Shown here: piece after piece, positions 14,601 to 20,230 of the stretch
Numbering within the stretch: position 1 is the stretch's first letter
Layout: every line of letters begins with the position of its first letter
Assembly (NCBI GenBank): GCA_001516125.1
Contig: LOEX01000118.1
Location: 1-53,718, forward strand
Direction of reading: 5' to 3'
Length of the DNA stretch: 53,718 nt
Origin: Sphingomonadales bacterium BRH_c42
GTDB lineage: Bacteria > Pseudomonadota > Alphaproteobacteria > Sphingomonadales > Sphingomonadaceae
The notes under the pieces: generated by a model
Database searches by the model: none
What the model was told of the DNA's origin: nothing
Seen by the model: only the letters and a program-made list of their open reading frames with translations
Translations under genes and position numbers: made by a program

Positions 14601-16814
14601 ATGGTTTCGCAGGCTGCCACCAACCAGATCAAGTCCCCCAGGTGGCGGCGGAAGTTTGTCGTCGCGTCGCGCCGGGCCAACGTGTTCCGCTGGCTCGAAA
14701 TCATCAGTGCGGTGGCGCTACTCGCGGCGATCTGGAGTACCTGGTTCACTTTCACCAACGCCCCGCCCGACGGGCAGTTCCTGCCATCGGCGCAGGTGGC
14801 GGCGTTGCTGATCAGCACGCTGATCCCGGCAATGACACTGCTGGTGCTTATGGGGCGCCGCCTGGCGCTCAAGCGGGCAGCGGGCAGCACTGCGCGGCTG
14901 CATGTGAGGTTGGTGTTCTTTTTTTCGGTGATTGCGGCCGTTCCCACACTGTTGGTTGCGGGTTTCGCAGCGCTCCTGTTCCAGCTGGGGGTCGATTTCT
15001 GGTTCTCCGACAATTCGCGCGGATTGATGGAAAATGCCCGCGAGCTGGCCGAAGGCTATTACGCGGAAAACCAGCTCAATGTTGCCGACGAGACAATCGC
15101 CATGGCCGGTGACATGCGCTTCTACCTTGAACGGGGGGCGCTGACCGACGAGGGTTTTGCCGAGTTCTACGCCTATCAGGCCCAGGCCCGTGACCTGACC
15201 GAATCCGCAATCTTCCAGCAGTTGGCCGATGGTTCGCTGCGCACGGCAGCGATCTTTGATCTGATGGCCGAAAACCAGCCGCTTGAATTCGGGGCGATGG
15301 CGCTTCCCAGGCTTTCATCGGGCGATCCGGTGGTGGTTGAGGGTAACCCGCAGCGCATTGCCGCGGTTGCCCCGATCGACCGGAACAGCGGCATATACCT
15401 TTACAACGCCCGCAGTTCGGAGGCCGGATCGTTCAGTTACTGGGAGCGCGCGCAGTCGATCTATAAAACCTACCAATCGCTGACCCTTCGTGCGCGGGCG
15501 CTGCAATTGCGGTTCAACCTTGCGCTGGTCGCGGTCAGCCTGGCGCTGGTCGGATTGGCGGTGTGGTTCGCGCTGCGCTTTGCCGACCGGCAGGTTGAGC
15601 CTTTAACCGATCTGGTCGCCGCCGCTCGCGAAGTCGGGGCGGGCAACTTCACCCTGCGTGTAAAGGGGCGCAAGGGCGGTGATGAAATCGGGCTGCTCAA
15701 TCGCGCCTTCAACCGCATGACTGCGCAGCTGGAAAAGCAGACCGATGCGCTGGTGAATGCCAATCGGCAAATCGACGACCGGCGGGCCTTCATGGAGGCG
15801 GTGCTCGAATCGGTTACGGCAGGCGTCATTTCAGTCGGCGGAAACGGCCGCGTCCAGCTGATGAACAGCTCGGCGCAGAGACTTCTCACAGGCCGCGAGG
15901 ATGGGCCGGGAGTCGGCATCGAGCTGTCGGCAGTGGCGCCGGAAATCCATCGCCTGATCCAGGCGGGGCTCAAGAGCGGCGTAGTGACGCAGGCCAAGGG
16001 AGACGACTTGCTGACGCTCGCGGTCAGGATAGCGCCCGAGCGGGGCGGGCATGTCATCACTTTCGAGGACATCACGCGCCAGCTTCTCGATCAGCGCCAG
16101 GCCGCGTGGTCGGATGTCGCGCGCCGGATTGCGCACGAGATCAAGAACCCACTCACCCCCATCCAGCTTGCGACCGAGCGGCTCAAGCGGCGCTATCGCA
16201 AGCAGATCGAAAGCGATGGCGAACTGTTTGACGAACTGACCCTCACCATCGTCCGGCAAGTTGGCGACCTGCGCAAGATGGTGGACGAATTCTCTTCGTT
16301 CGCCCGTCTGCCCAAGCCCAACTTCCGCATGGAAGACGCACTCGATCTGGTCCGCCAGTCGTTGTTCCTGCAGGAGGTTGCGCATCCGAAGATCGATTTC
16401 GTGCTCGATGCCGACACATCGCTTGATTTCGCCCTGTCCTGCGATCGGCACCAGTTGGGTCAGGCAATGACCAATGTGCTCAAGAATGCGGTCGAGGCGG
16501 TCGAGGCGCGCGCGAAATCGGCAGAGCCCGACTATCGCGGCCGGATCGCGGTGGGCATGACGATCGATGAGGAGATGCTGACAATCGTGGTCGAAGACAA
16601 CGGCATCGGTCTGCCACAAGACCGCGAGCGGATTCTCGAACCCTATGTCACCACGCGCGAAAAGGGCACGGGCCTGGGGCTGGCGATCGTCAACAAGATT
16701 GTCGATGAACATGGCGGCGAGATTTCATTCTCAGCCGGAACGAGCGGAGGAACGCGCGTCGTTCTCAAGTTTGCGCGCGATCCGCTCGTTGCAATAAGGG
16801 AAGCAGCAGACTGA
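14601..16814 (+). CDS. ntrY: NtrY, membrane sensor histidine kinase
   Basis: 737 residues. Two N-terminal hydrophobic helices (about 30-55 and 65-85), a third helix (VRLVFFFSVIAAVPTLLVAGFAALLF), an extracytoplasmic sensor segment, another helix (FNLALVAVSLALVGLAVWFALRF), then HAMP, PAS, and a kinase core with HEIKNPLTPIQLATERLKRRY, DNGIGLP and GTGLGLAIVNKI. It is the partner of NtrX; in other alphaproteobacteria NtrYX is tied to nitrogen, redox and envelope control. ATG 14601 is chosen; an earlier start at 14571 would begin inside the palindrome. Its stop overlaps ntrX by one base (TGATG). Confidence 0.95.
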   Translation: MVSQAATNQIKSPRWRRKFVVASRRANVFRWLEIISAVALLAAIWSTWFTFTNAPPDGQFLPSAQVAALLISTLIPAMTLLVLMGRRLALKRAAGSTARLHVRLVFFFSVIAAVPTLLVAGFAALLFQLGVDFWFSDNSRGLMENARELAEGYYAENQLNVADETIAMAGDMRFYLERGALTDEGFAEFYAYQAQARDLTESAIFQQLADGSLRTAAIFDLMAENQPLEFGAMALPRLSSGDPVVVEGNPQRIAAVAPIDRNSGIYLYNARSSEAGSFSYWERAQSIYKTYQSLTLRARALQLRFNLALVAVSLALVGLAVWFALRFADRQVEPLTDLVAAAREVGAGNFTLRVKGRKGGDEIGLLNRAFNRMTAQLEKQTDALVNANRQIDDRRAFMEAVLESVTAGVISVGGNGRVQLMNSSAQRLLTGREDGPGVGIELSAVAPEIHRLIQAGLKSGVVTQAKGDDLLTLAVRIAPERGGHVITFEDITRQLLDQRQAAWSDVARRIAHEIKNPLTPIQLATERLKRRYRKQIESDGELFDELTLTIVRQVGDLRKMVDEFSSFARLPKPNFRMEDALDLVRQSLFLQEVAHPKIDFVLDADTSLDFALSCDRHQLGQAMTNVLKNAVEAVEARAKSAEPDYRGRIAVGMTIDEEMLTIVVEDNGIGLPQDRERILEPYVTTREKGTGLGLAIVNKIVDEHGGEISFSAGTSGGTRVVLKFARDPLVAIREAAD

Positions 16815-18202
16815 TGGCGCTCGATATTCTCATTGTCGATGACGAACGCGATATACGCGAGCTTGTGGCCGGCGTGCTGAGCGATGAAGGTTACGATTGC
16901 CGGACTGCGGGCGACAGCAGGACTGCGCTGACCATGATCGACGAACGCAGGCCCAGCCTGGTCCTGCTCGACGTCTGGCTGCACGGCAGCGAGATGGACG
17001 GCCTCGAAGTGCTCGACGCGATCAAGTCGCGCGAGCCGCAGCTTCCGGTGATCATATTTTCGGGGCACGGCAATATCGACACTGCGGTTTCGGCGGTCAG
17101 CCGCGGCGCTATGGATTTCATCGAAAAACCGTTCGAGGCGGAGCGTCTGCTACTGCTGGTGGACAGAGCTACCGAAACCGAGCGACTGAGGCGCGAAATC
17201 TCGCGCCTGCGCGAAGGATTCAGCCGCGGCGAGGAGTTCACCGGCAACTCGGGCCAGATCAACGCGGTGCGGGCCACGCTCAAGCGTGTTGCGGCAACGG
17301 GCAGCAGGGTGCTGATTTCCGGCCCGGCCGGGTCAGGCAAGGAAGTTGCTGCGCGGTTGCTGCACAGCTGGAGCCAGCGGGCAAACAACGCCTTCGTCAT
17401 CGTCAATTCGGCGCGCATCACGCCCGAGCGCTTCGAGCAGGAGCTGTTCGGCGAGGAGATCGACGGCAAGCTGGTGCGTCCCGGCTTGCTCGAGCTTGCC
17501 GATGGAGGCACGCTCTACCTCGACGAGGTGTCGGACATGCCGCTTTCGACGCAGGCGCGGATCCTGCGCGTGCTGACGGAACAGAGCTTCGTGCGGGTAG
17601 GGGGCACGCGCCAGATCGGGGTGGATGTGCGGGTGGTTTCGTCCAGCTCGCGCGATCTGGCCGCCGAAATGTCCGAACGACGCTTTCGTGAGGATCTGTT
17701 CTATCGCCTCAACGTGGTGCCGGTCTGCGTTCCCTCGCTGGCAGAGAGGCGAGAGGACATTCCGGCATTGGCCGAACATTTCTTCACCCGCTATTCCGCT
17801 GAACAGGGGATAGCGCCGCCCGTCCTTACCAAAGACGCGATCGCGGCCTTGCAGGCCTACGACTGGCCCGGCAATGTCCGCCAGCTGCGAAATGTGGTCG
17901 AGCGCACGATCATCATGACGCCGCGCGAACGCCTCACCGTCGTCGAAACCGATATGCTGCCGGCAGACCTGTTCGGGAATTCGCAGCTCGAAAACGGCCA
18001 GGGTTACTCGGCAATGATGGGCGCACCGCTGCGCGAGGCCCGCGAGAACTTCGAACGCGAATATCTGGCAGTCCAGATTCGCCGCTTTTCCGGGAATATT
18101 TCGAAGACGGCCGCGTTCATCGGAATGGAAAGGTCTGCGCTACATCGTAAGCTCAAGCTGTTGGGGATGACCGACAAGGCCGAGGGCCAGCCCGACGAAT
18201 GA
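16814..18202 (+). CDS. ntrX: NtrX, NtrC-family response regulator without the GAFTGA loop
   Basis: 462 residues: receiver with Asp53 (LLDVWL), AAA+ domain with Walker A GPAGSGKE (170-177), Walker B TLYLDEVSDM, arginine finger FREDLFYRLNV, and a C-terminal Fis-type helix-turn-helix (GNISKTAAFIGMERSALHRKL). Where NtrC at 13.1 kb has ELFGHEKGAFTGA, NtrX reads ELFGEEIDGKLVRPG, about five residues shorter and lacking GAFTGA. The loop that contacts sigma-54 is thus absent, and it probably acts as a sigma-70-type activator or repressor. The ATG overlaps the ntrY stop. Confidence 0.95.
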   Translation: MALDILIVDDERDIRELVAGVLSDEGYDCRTAGDSRTALTMIDERRPSLVLLDVWLHGSEMDGLEVLDAIKSREPQLPVIIFSGHGNIDTAVSAVSRGAMDFIEKPFEAERLLLLVDRATETERLRREISRLREGFSRGEEFTGNSGQINAVRATLKRVAATGSRVLISGPAGSGKEVAARLLHSWSQRANNAFVIVNSARITPERFEQELFGEEIDGKLVRPGLLELADGGTLYLDEVSDMPLSTQARILRVLTEQSFVRVGGTRQIGVDVRVVSSSSRDLAAEMSERRFREDLFYRLNVVPVCVPSLAERREDIPALAEHFFTRYSAEQGIAPPVLTKDAIAALQAYDWPGNVRQLRNVVERTIIMTPRERLTVVETDMLPADLFGNSQLENGQGYSAMMGAPLREARENFEREYLAVQIRRFSGNISKTAAFIGMERSALHRKLKLLGMTDKAEGQPDE

Positions 18203-18362: not shown

Positions 18363-18914
18363 ATGTCAGACGGGCAGACCCTTTCCGCACGCCCACGTCC
18401 CAAGAAGGACAGCAAGAAGGTTGAAAGTGCCGCCGTTGACCGACCGGTCAACCTCCAGGACGCTTTTCTGAACCTGCTGCGCAAGCACAAGACCCCGGTG
18501 ACGATCTTTCTCGTCAAGGGAGTCAAGTTGCAGGGCATTGTCACATGGTTTGACAACTTCTCGATCCTGCTGCGCCGGGACGGACAATCGCAACTGGTGT
18601 ACAAACATGCGATCTCCACCATCATGCCGGGCCAACCGCTCGACGCCGGGCAGTTCACGAGTCAGGCAGGCAATCGCAAGCTTCGGCTGCTGCAGGACGT
18701 GTTTCTCAGCCGGGTTTGCGATGCGCAGGTGCAAGTCACCATGTTCCTGGTCAATGGCGTGATGTTGCAGGGCCGGATCGCTGCATTCGACCTCTTTTGC
18801 ACTCTTCTCGAACGCGACGGCTTTGTTCAGCTCGCCTACAAGCACGCCGTATCGACCATCCAGCCGGCGGCGCATGTCGATCTCAGCGACGGTCTTGAAG
18901 GCGAAGACGACTGA
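18363..18914 (+). CDS. hfq: Hfq with two fused Sm domains
   Basis: RNA chaperone mediating sRNA-mRNA pairing. 183 residues, over twice the usual single-domain length. A basic N-terminal tail (1-29) is followed by Sm domain 1 (30-89), a Gln/Gly linker, Sm domain 2 (108-168) and a short acidic tail. Both copies keep the Sm1 Gln-Asp (Q32-D33, Q111-D112) and the Sm2 motif YKHA[IV]STI (Y80-K81-H82; Y159-K160-H161). Copy 1 keeps a basic rim (RKHK, 40-43). Copy 2 has CDAQ (119-122) there and Met134 where E. coli has Lys31. If it forms the normal ring, three chains would make six Sm units. Start ATG 18363 with AGGAGA upstream. Confidence 0.96.
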
Positions 18915-20230
18915 GCTTTACCGGCGAGCCACGCGAGGAAGTCGCCCGCGGCGCGCGGGCGCTGGTGTTGTGCCCGGAGATCAAGGGCCAACGCCACGAT
19001 CTCGACGGGAAGGGCAGGCTGGACGAGGCGTGTGGACTGGCGCTGGCGATTGGACTTCAGATCGTCGAAGCAAGTTTGCTGCCAGTCCGCTCCGTTCGTG
19101 CCAACACCCTGTTCGGCAGCGGCCAGGTTGAGCGCATTGCCGCCGATTGTGAGCTGCATTCGGCCGAACTGGTCGTCGTCGATGGCGCGCTGAGCGCAAT
19201 CCAGCAGCGCAACCTCGAAGAAAAGCTGGGGCGTAAGGTAATCGACCGCACCGGGCTGATTCTCGAGATCTTCGGCGAACGCGCGGCCACCGCGGAGGGG
19301 CGGCTTCAGGTCGAACTGGCGCATCTCGACTATCAACAAAGCCGCCTGGTGCGAAGCTGGACCCACCTCGAGCGCCAGCGCGGCGGCTTCGGCTTTCTCG
19401 GCGGCCCTGGCGAGACGCAGATCGAGGCCGACCGGCGGATGATCCGCCAGCGCATGGGCCGGTTGCGGCGCGAGCTGGAGCAGGTGCGCAAGACCCGCAA
19501 GCTGCATCGCGGCAGGCGCGAAAAGGCGCCTTGGCCGGTGATCGCATTGGTCGGTTATACCAACGCCGGCAAATCGTCGCTGTTCAACCGGCTCACCGGA
19601 TCGGATGTAATGGCGGAAGATCTGCTCTTCGCCACGCTCGACCCGACGATGCGTGCGATCGGTCTGCCCGGGATAGAAAAGGCGATCCTTTCGGATACGG
19701 TCGGCTTCATCTCGGACCTGCCGACGCAGCTGGTTGCAGCCTTTCGGGCGACGCTGGAAGAGGTCACTTCGGCCGACCTCATCCTTCACGTTCGCGACAT
19801 GGCCAATGCCGCGCACAGTGCGCAGAAAAAACAGGTCATGGCGGTGCTCGCTGATCTCGGCATTGTCGATCTGCAATCCGGTGAAAGCTCAATCCCGATC
19901 CTTGAAGTCTGGAACAAGATCGACCTGCTTGCGCCCGAAGAAGCGCAGGAGCTTGACCGGGTCTGCCGCGAGCGAGAGGACGCTGTGGCAATCTCAGCGG
20001 TGACAGGGGAGGGGATTGAACCCCTGCTCGATCGCGTGTCGCAAATGTTGACCGGTGAGGCGCGCGAATTTGAGCTGCTGCTGCCAGCCAGTGACGGCAG
20101 GCGGATTGCCTGGCTGCATGCGCACGGCGAAGTGATATCCGACGAGGAGTCCACTGGCACGGGGGAGGCATTGCGCAAGCTGGTGGTACGGCTCAATCCC
20201 AAGGAATTCGGGCAGTTCCGCTCGCTATAG
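18911..20230 (+). CDS. hflX: HflX ribosome-associated GTPase; probable CTG start
   Basis: Ribosome-splitting GTPase of the HflX family. N-terminal domain ([25 protein letters not shown]), glycine-rich [21 protein letters not shown], then G1 [10 protein letters not shown]3 DTVGF and G4 NKID. The first ATG/GTG/TTG in frame is GTG 18965, which would begin inside beta-strand 1 (RALVLCPEI). The in-frame stop is at 18896-18898, and between them only CTG 18911 can serve. It forms CTGA with the hfq stop and has GAAGG 9 nt upstream. I annotate CTG; GTG 18965 (421 residues) is the conservative alternative. Confidence 0.9.

Follow-up and report, generated by a model that had tools for sequence, protein, structure and literature searches.

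The window analyzed here, a stretch of 53,718 nucleotides from Sphingomonadales bacterium BRH_c42, encodes a 183-residue Hfq (18363..18914, + strand) of a known type, in which two Sm domains are fused head to tail. Three such chains probably close one six-unit ring in which domains 1 and 2 alternate and, in the clade to which the window belongs (clade A), basic lateral rims lie on domain 1 only. The sequence comparisons that suggest this arrangement exposed a marked asymmetry between the rims of the two domains and, on the distal face, an exchange of lysines between positions 28 and 31 (E. coli numbering).

The original prediction of a 183-residue chain with two complete Sm domains was borne out: the frame is open, the Pfam Hfq model (PF17209) matches two stretches of the chain, and the NCBIfam tandem-Hfq model NF010691/PRK14091 scores it at 290.6 bits (cut-off 270), making it a member of that family. 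PF17209 and TIGR02383 likewise place it in the Hfq family, with an Sm domain above the curated cut-off; on the genome, the two places matched by Pfam Hfq scored 107 and 78.7 bits, both above the cut-off of 27. Of six other tandem proteins, five passed NF010691 and the fast-evolving L157 failed (144.4 bits); one single-domain Hfq scored 132.9 bits. Along the + strand, the gene encodes an N-terminal arm (residues 1-29, 18363..18449) with TLSARPRP at residues 6-13, Sm domain 1 (residues 30-89, 18450..18629), in which the lateral pocket residues are present, a 20-residue linker (residues 90-109, 18630..18689), Sm domain 2 (residues 110-168, 18690..18866), and an acidic C-terminal tail (residues 169-183, 18867..18911). 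The two domains are identical at 33 of 59 aligned positions. An assembly or frame artefact, or chance, was ruled out by the presence of the same two-domain frame in 164 other non-redundant proteins.

Annotation of the window's open reading frames placed an ntrX-type sigma-54 response regulator (16814..18202, +) upstream of the tandem hfq, where there is also an NtrY-type kinase. Downstream are an hflX-type GTPase (18965..20230, +), the relatives of which were the source of our species tree, and a MazG protein encoded on the opposite strand. Two of the fetched loci longer than 2.5 kb (L102 and L202) had no hflX.

Double-domain Hfq, originally described as noted in "a few" alphaproteobacteria, is the rule in the sampled family and no rarity. 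Matches were present in 388 of 397 family genomes, with E <1e-50 in 335 and weaker values in 53 (counted by hand). The overall interpretation offered originally stands for the fused Hfq and the non-basic second rim and falls for the rarity. Examination of 29 of the 53 weaker-match genomes uncovered five tandem proteins, all from genus g98, one sequence cut by a contig end (G443), and 23 single-domain proteins; E-values alone would miss tandem Hfqs as diverged as those of g98. At the class level, 319 of 385 genomes had a match, five of them at E <1e-60, all from this family and one being the window's own, and the next best was 3e-34. All 24 genomes from other families of the order, identified among 61 sampled relatives, were at the single-domain level, with a second, partial match in G037. 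Named relatives among the best 80 matches listed were Erythrobacter, Altererythrobacter, Qipengyuania, and allies. The searches were within the class and comprised the 61 relatives, 397 family genomes, and 385 class genomes. A separate single-domain Hfq as a partner was rejected: a profile search of the window's own genome (78% complete) found no Hfq besides the tandem protein, and a second Hfq match, as read by hand, occurred in only three of the 388 matching family genomes (G067, G368, and G392), such that a partner of this kind is rarely at hand.

For comparison of the domains, we used 165 non-redundant tandem Hfqs (169 minus identical proteins; 110 loci, a further 54 proteins from named genomes, and the window), of which 134 belong to clade A and 31 do not, alongside 29 single-domain relatives told apart by hflX only, four of which (L083, L088, L100, and L104) repeat another's Hfq. 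An earlier count set held 126 tandem and 32 single-domain proteins after five overlapping loci and seven identical sequences had been dropped; the 32 include a tandem Hfq cut at a contig end (L106) and a broken frame (L108). In the hflX tree, the window was placed in clade A, comprising 138 tips (support 0.97), and the 31 other tandem tips consisted of a 29-tip group and two further sequences. All 169 tandem sequences fell in one group that included none of the 29 singles, at a node with support of 0.33, and the tree was rooted with seven other-family sequences that did not group together. Independently of this tree, the states shared at positions 28, 31, and 63 suggest that tandem Hfq arose once. 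One single-domain Hfq (L092, from G077 of genus g39) has the tandem-like tail PINLAEID, as opposed to the LFE/LFD-type tails of most other singles, and is possibly close to the tandem lineage.

At the lateral rim, domain 1 of the window carries the basic motif RKHK (residues 40-43, E. coli positions 16-19; 18480..18491, +) and domain 2 has CDAQ (residues 119-122; 18717..18728, +), a rim without basic residues. These residues, as well as Met134, had been quoted in the original prediction and were all confirmed on translation; the basic patch of annealing-type Hfq (the arginine patch at positions 16, 17, and 19) was found in the first domain and not in the second. The lateral pocket of E. coli Hfq comprises N13, R16, R17, S38, and F39 (PMC5379935), and domain 2 of the window also does not have Asn13, with Ser116 in its place. 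Additionally, domain 2 has E150 at insertion position 46i (18810..18812, +), the counterpart of which in domain 1 is Arg71. Across the non-redundant tandem Hfqs, window included, positions 16 and 17 are both basic in 165 of 165 first domains and in 21 of 165 second domains, and the same pair is present in 29 of 29 single-domain relatives. In the earlier set, N13, basic residues at 16 and 17, and F39 occurred together in all 126 first domains, three of the 126 second domains, and all 32 singles. For positions 13, 16, 17, and 19, the difference in variability between second and first domains was matched by none of 20,000 random four-position sets (169 sequences). Weighted entropy shrank the alignment to an effective 16 sequences, mostly fast-evolving, and unweighted counts with and without those were therefore used.

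The state of the second rim divides by clade. The basic pair was in none of the 134 clade-A second domains, as against 134 of 134 first domains of the same clade, and was present in 21 of the 31 second domains outside it. Absence of the pair is thus a clade trait and no rule of tandem Hfq; conservation of basic rim residues in copy 2 of relatives, named originally as evidence against a lineage trait, was seen in part, in relatives outside clade A, and a universal loss of the second rim was rejected. Among the clade-A second domains, 131 of 134 have Glu at 46i, and two or more of positions 17, 19, and 46i are acidic in 124 of 134. Mean charge over six rim positions in clade A was +4.81 in first domains and -0.96 in second domains, only six of which had a net positive rim, and the second-domain mean outside clade A (n=31) was +2.90, with a value of zero or below in one protein. 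From these residues, the change in the second rim of clade A looks like a charge reversal rather than decay, and the idea of alternating rims holds, as a prediction, for the window's clade, in which acids of the second rim are conserved. When only tandem tips were used, parsimony reconstructed "not both basic" at the root of the second domains, with nine changes. Given this root state, a simple loss of the basic pair in clade A only is unproven, and outside clade A the pair may have been either retained or regained.

On the distal face, K52 to K55 of domain 1 (E. coli 28 to 31; 18516..18527, +) correspond to N131 to M134 of domain 2 (18753..18764, +), which is without a distal lysine. The missing Lys31 of copy 2 had been seen in the original prediction, and the extra Lys28 of copy 1 had been overlooked. 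Counting basic residues at positions 28 and 31 together, we found two in the first and none in the second domain of all 165 tandem proteins, and one in each of the 29 single-domain relatives. Position 28 is lysine in every first domain and Asn in the relatives, and position 31 of second domains is Met in 162 of 165 and basic in none; the fast-evolving L157-L161 of genus g98 have the asymmetry as well. In effect, a lysine appears to have shifted from position 31 of second domains to position 28 of first domains, with the ancestral total kept. Two neighbouring monomers form the purine site, and the backbone of Lys31 contacts the A-site base at its phosphate (PMC6422490); N28 takes part in the second A-site through a water molecule (review PMC10628458). 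If position 28 of one unit and position 31 of its neighbour jointly serve a triplet, there would be one lysine per triplet under alternation, against two in one homotypic ring and none in the other. The 28/31 pattern fits an alternating ring of this predicted geometry, of which the exchange of lysines gives a new hint. The 165 counts share ancestry, and the two states may represent two substitutions fixed once.

Proximal-face residues had been described as retained in both copies, which is largely the case: YKHA is kept in domain 2 of the window, and all 165 second domains retain K56, H57, Q52, T61, and Y/F55, but the face of copy 2 is not wholly unchanged, position 41 being Leu144 there versus Asn65 in copy 1. 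In a comparison of 161 sequences, with eight fast-evolving tandem sequences left out, positions 15, 28, 31, 37, 38, 41, 43, and 63 differed between the halves (85% or more in each half), and the difference at 28, 31, 38, 41, and 63 was present in both clade groups. Position 63 is Gln in 163 of 165 second domains (Gln167 in the window) and mostly Met in first and single domains; Gln63 is perhaps a change at the ring interface.

The segments that follow the two domains also differ, with a mean net charge across the 165 tandem proteins of -6.9 for the tail and +0.4 for the linker. A net charge of -3 or lower was recorded for the tail after domain 2 in 157 proteins and for the linker after domain 1 in three. 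In Caulobacter Hfq, the acidic tip touches the rim of the adjacent protomer (PMC6561178); an acidic tail retained only after domain 2 could hence guard first-domain rims one to one. Linker and second-rim charge gave raw Spearman correlations of -0.35 and -0.41, which were not significant by rank after correction for kinship, and independent contrasts on the hflX tree gave r of -0.18 (p 0.021) and -0.20 (p 0.009) in a set of 14 pairs tried. A bookkeeping of tails and rims as an evolutionary coupling, in which a basic second rim would go with an acidic linker, is unproven. The fast-evolving g98 proteins (L157-L161) have tails of only 4-5 residues and linkers of 13-15 residues.

We propose that three fused chains would form one ring of six Sm units, with first and second domains in turn and with all six units keeping the ring-closing and most of the proximal (U-binding) residues. 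The second rim being non-basic, as predicted, a ring closed by three chains would have basic rims on three of its six Sm units. In clade A, only first domains carry the basic lateral rim by which RNA annealing is accelerated, a process that increases with rim arginines (PMC6561178, PMC10628458). The single acidic C-terminal tail, coming after the neighbouring second domain, could dock at and guard each first-domain rim, and the neutral-to-acidic rim of the second domain should repel RNA, such that annealing would occur at three sites only. The distal lysine total would have been kept by the move from position 31 in domain 2 to position 28 in domain 1. More tentatively, such a protein might be a three-fold Hfq with divided labour, in which domain 1 anneals under the one-to-one guard of the chain's only acidic tail, the acidic rim of domain 2 is a fixed nucleic-acid mimic, and each A-R-N triplet receives one lysine only under alternation. 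There was no tandem Hfq among 35 PDB relatives, all of which are 63-114 residues long. The best PDB match of the tandem Hfq was 6gwk, which we take to be the Caulobacter Hfq entry.

Different arrangements of the same chain can be envisaged. Two linked rings, one of six first domains and the other of six second domains (12 Sm units), would be permitted by linkers that range from 13 to 24 residues, and the first-domain consensus is 83% identical to that of single-domain relatives (63% for second domains), with interface strands close to the single-domain sequence, making self-pairing and rings of first domains alone conceivable. This arrangement would, however, concentrate two basic residues at 28/31 per unit in one ring and leave none in the other, where only alternation would give the single-domain sum, and in clade A it would entail a ring of second domains without any basic lateral rim in which the other pockets were nonetheless kept. 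We consider it improbable, and the least probable of the alternatives.

The second domain could instead be a structural spacer, the surface of which drifts freely, with the rim change being functionless. The second-domain rim positions are indeed among the most variable, states outside clade A are mixed, and position 17 or 19 is acidic in just one of the eight tips of the fast branch. Conserved acids are not expected from free drift, however, and the directional pattern in clade A, both at 46i and in the clustering of acids at 17, 19, and 46i, disfavours this reading, which we regard as unlikely. A comparably small probability is assigned to the second rim having been remodelled not for repulsion of RNA but to bind a protein partner or the basic arm at the N-terminus of the protein itself. 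In Pseudomonas, Hfq N28 and R19 contact Crc in complexes (PMC9890229), and a T-L-S-x-R-P-like motif (loose pattern), with a mean net charge of +2.4 (range -5 to +6) from the motif to domain 1, lies ahead of domain 1 in 119 of the 134 proteins of clade A and in none of the 31 others. Yet position 17 or 19 is acidic in every tip of a six-tip branch of clade A that lacks the arm, and the acid rim thus need not depend on the arm. The alternating ring of three chains is the reading that we carry forward.

Neither the fusion nor the trimer idea is new, both being in a 2010 paper on Zymomonas mobilis, where ZMO0347 was described as having two Sm-like domains, as in proteins of six other Sphingomonadales species, hfq mutant phenotypes were reported, and it was asked whether only three proteins suffice for a ring (PMC2877685). 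ZMO0347 and the NF010691 proteins have, like the window's Hfq, two Sm domains in one chain, with a three-chain ring already raised, but the passages of the 2010 paper that were compared treat neither the rim nor differences between the domains (PMC2877685). A literature search of open-licence papers, covering titles and abstract openings, found none on differences between the two domains of tandem Hfq. What is new here is the comparative rim asymmetry and the 28/31 exchange; the fusion itself was already known.

Among other known systems, Caulobacter crescentus Hfq has a basic rim, proximal and distal sites, and a short acidic tail (PMC6561178), but its six identical units provide six rims and six tails, whereas the tandem Hfq has one basic rim and one tail per two domains. 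Hfqs of Gram-positive bacteria have a negative rim without an arginine patch (review PMC10628458), as in tandem domain 2, although all of their units are alike and in the tandem Hfq only alternate units would be patch-less. Non-identical neighbouring Sm units are also a feature of the eukaryotic Sm/Lsm hetero-rings, which have seven units (PMC2877685) from separate genes, in contrast to the one fused gene and putative six units of the tandem Hfq.

The invariant 28/31 exchange constitutes a sequence-level prediction of which domain adjoins which. The six-fold symmetry of an ordinary Hfq ring makes it hard to test what number of rim sites and of acidic tails the ring requires. In the tandem Hfq, evolution has joined two types of domain covalently in one chain, and basic rims and tails are both halved in number. 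The short-tailed tandem Hfqs of g98 provide a natural experiment on the role of the tail, and comparing clade A with related lineages, whose second rims are in many cases basic, would be a direct test of the rim-and-tail model of annealing.
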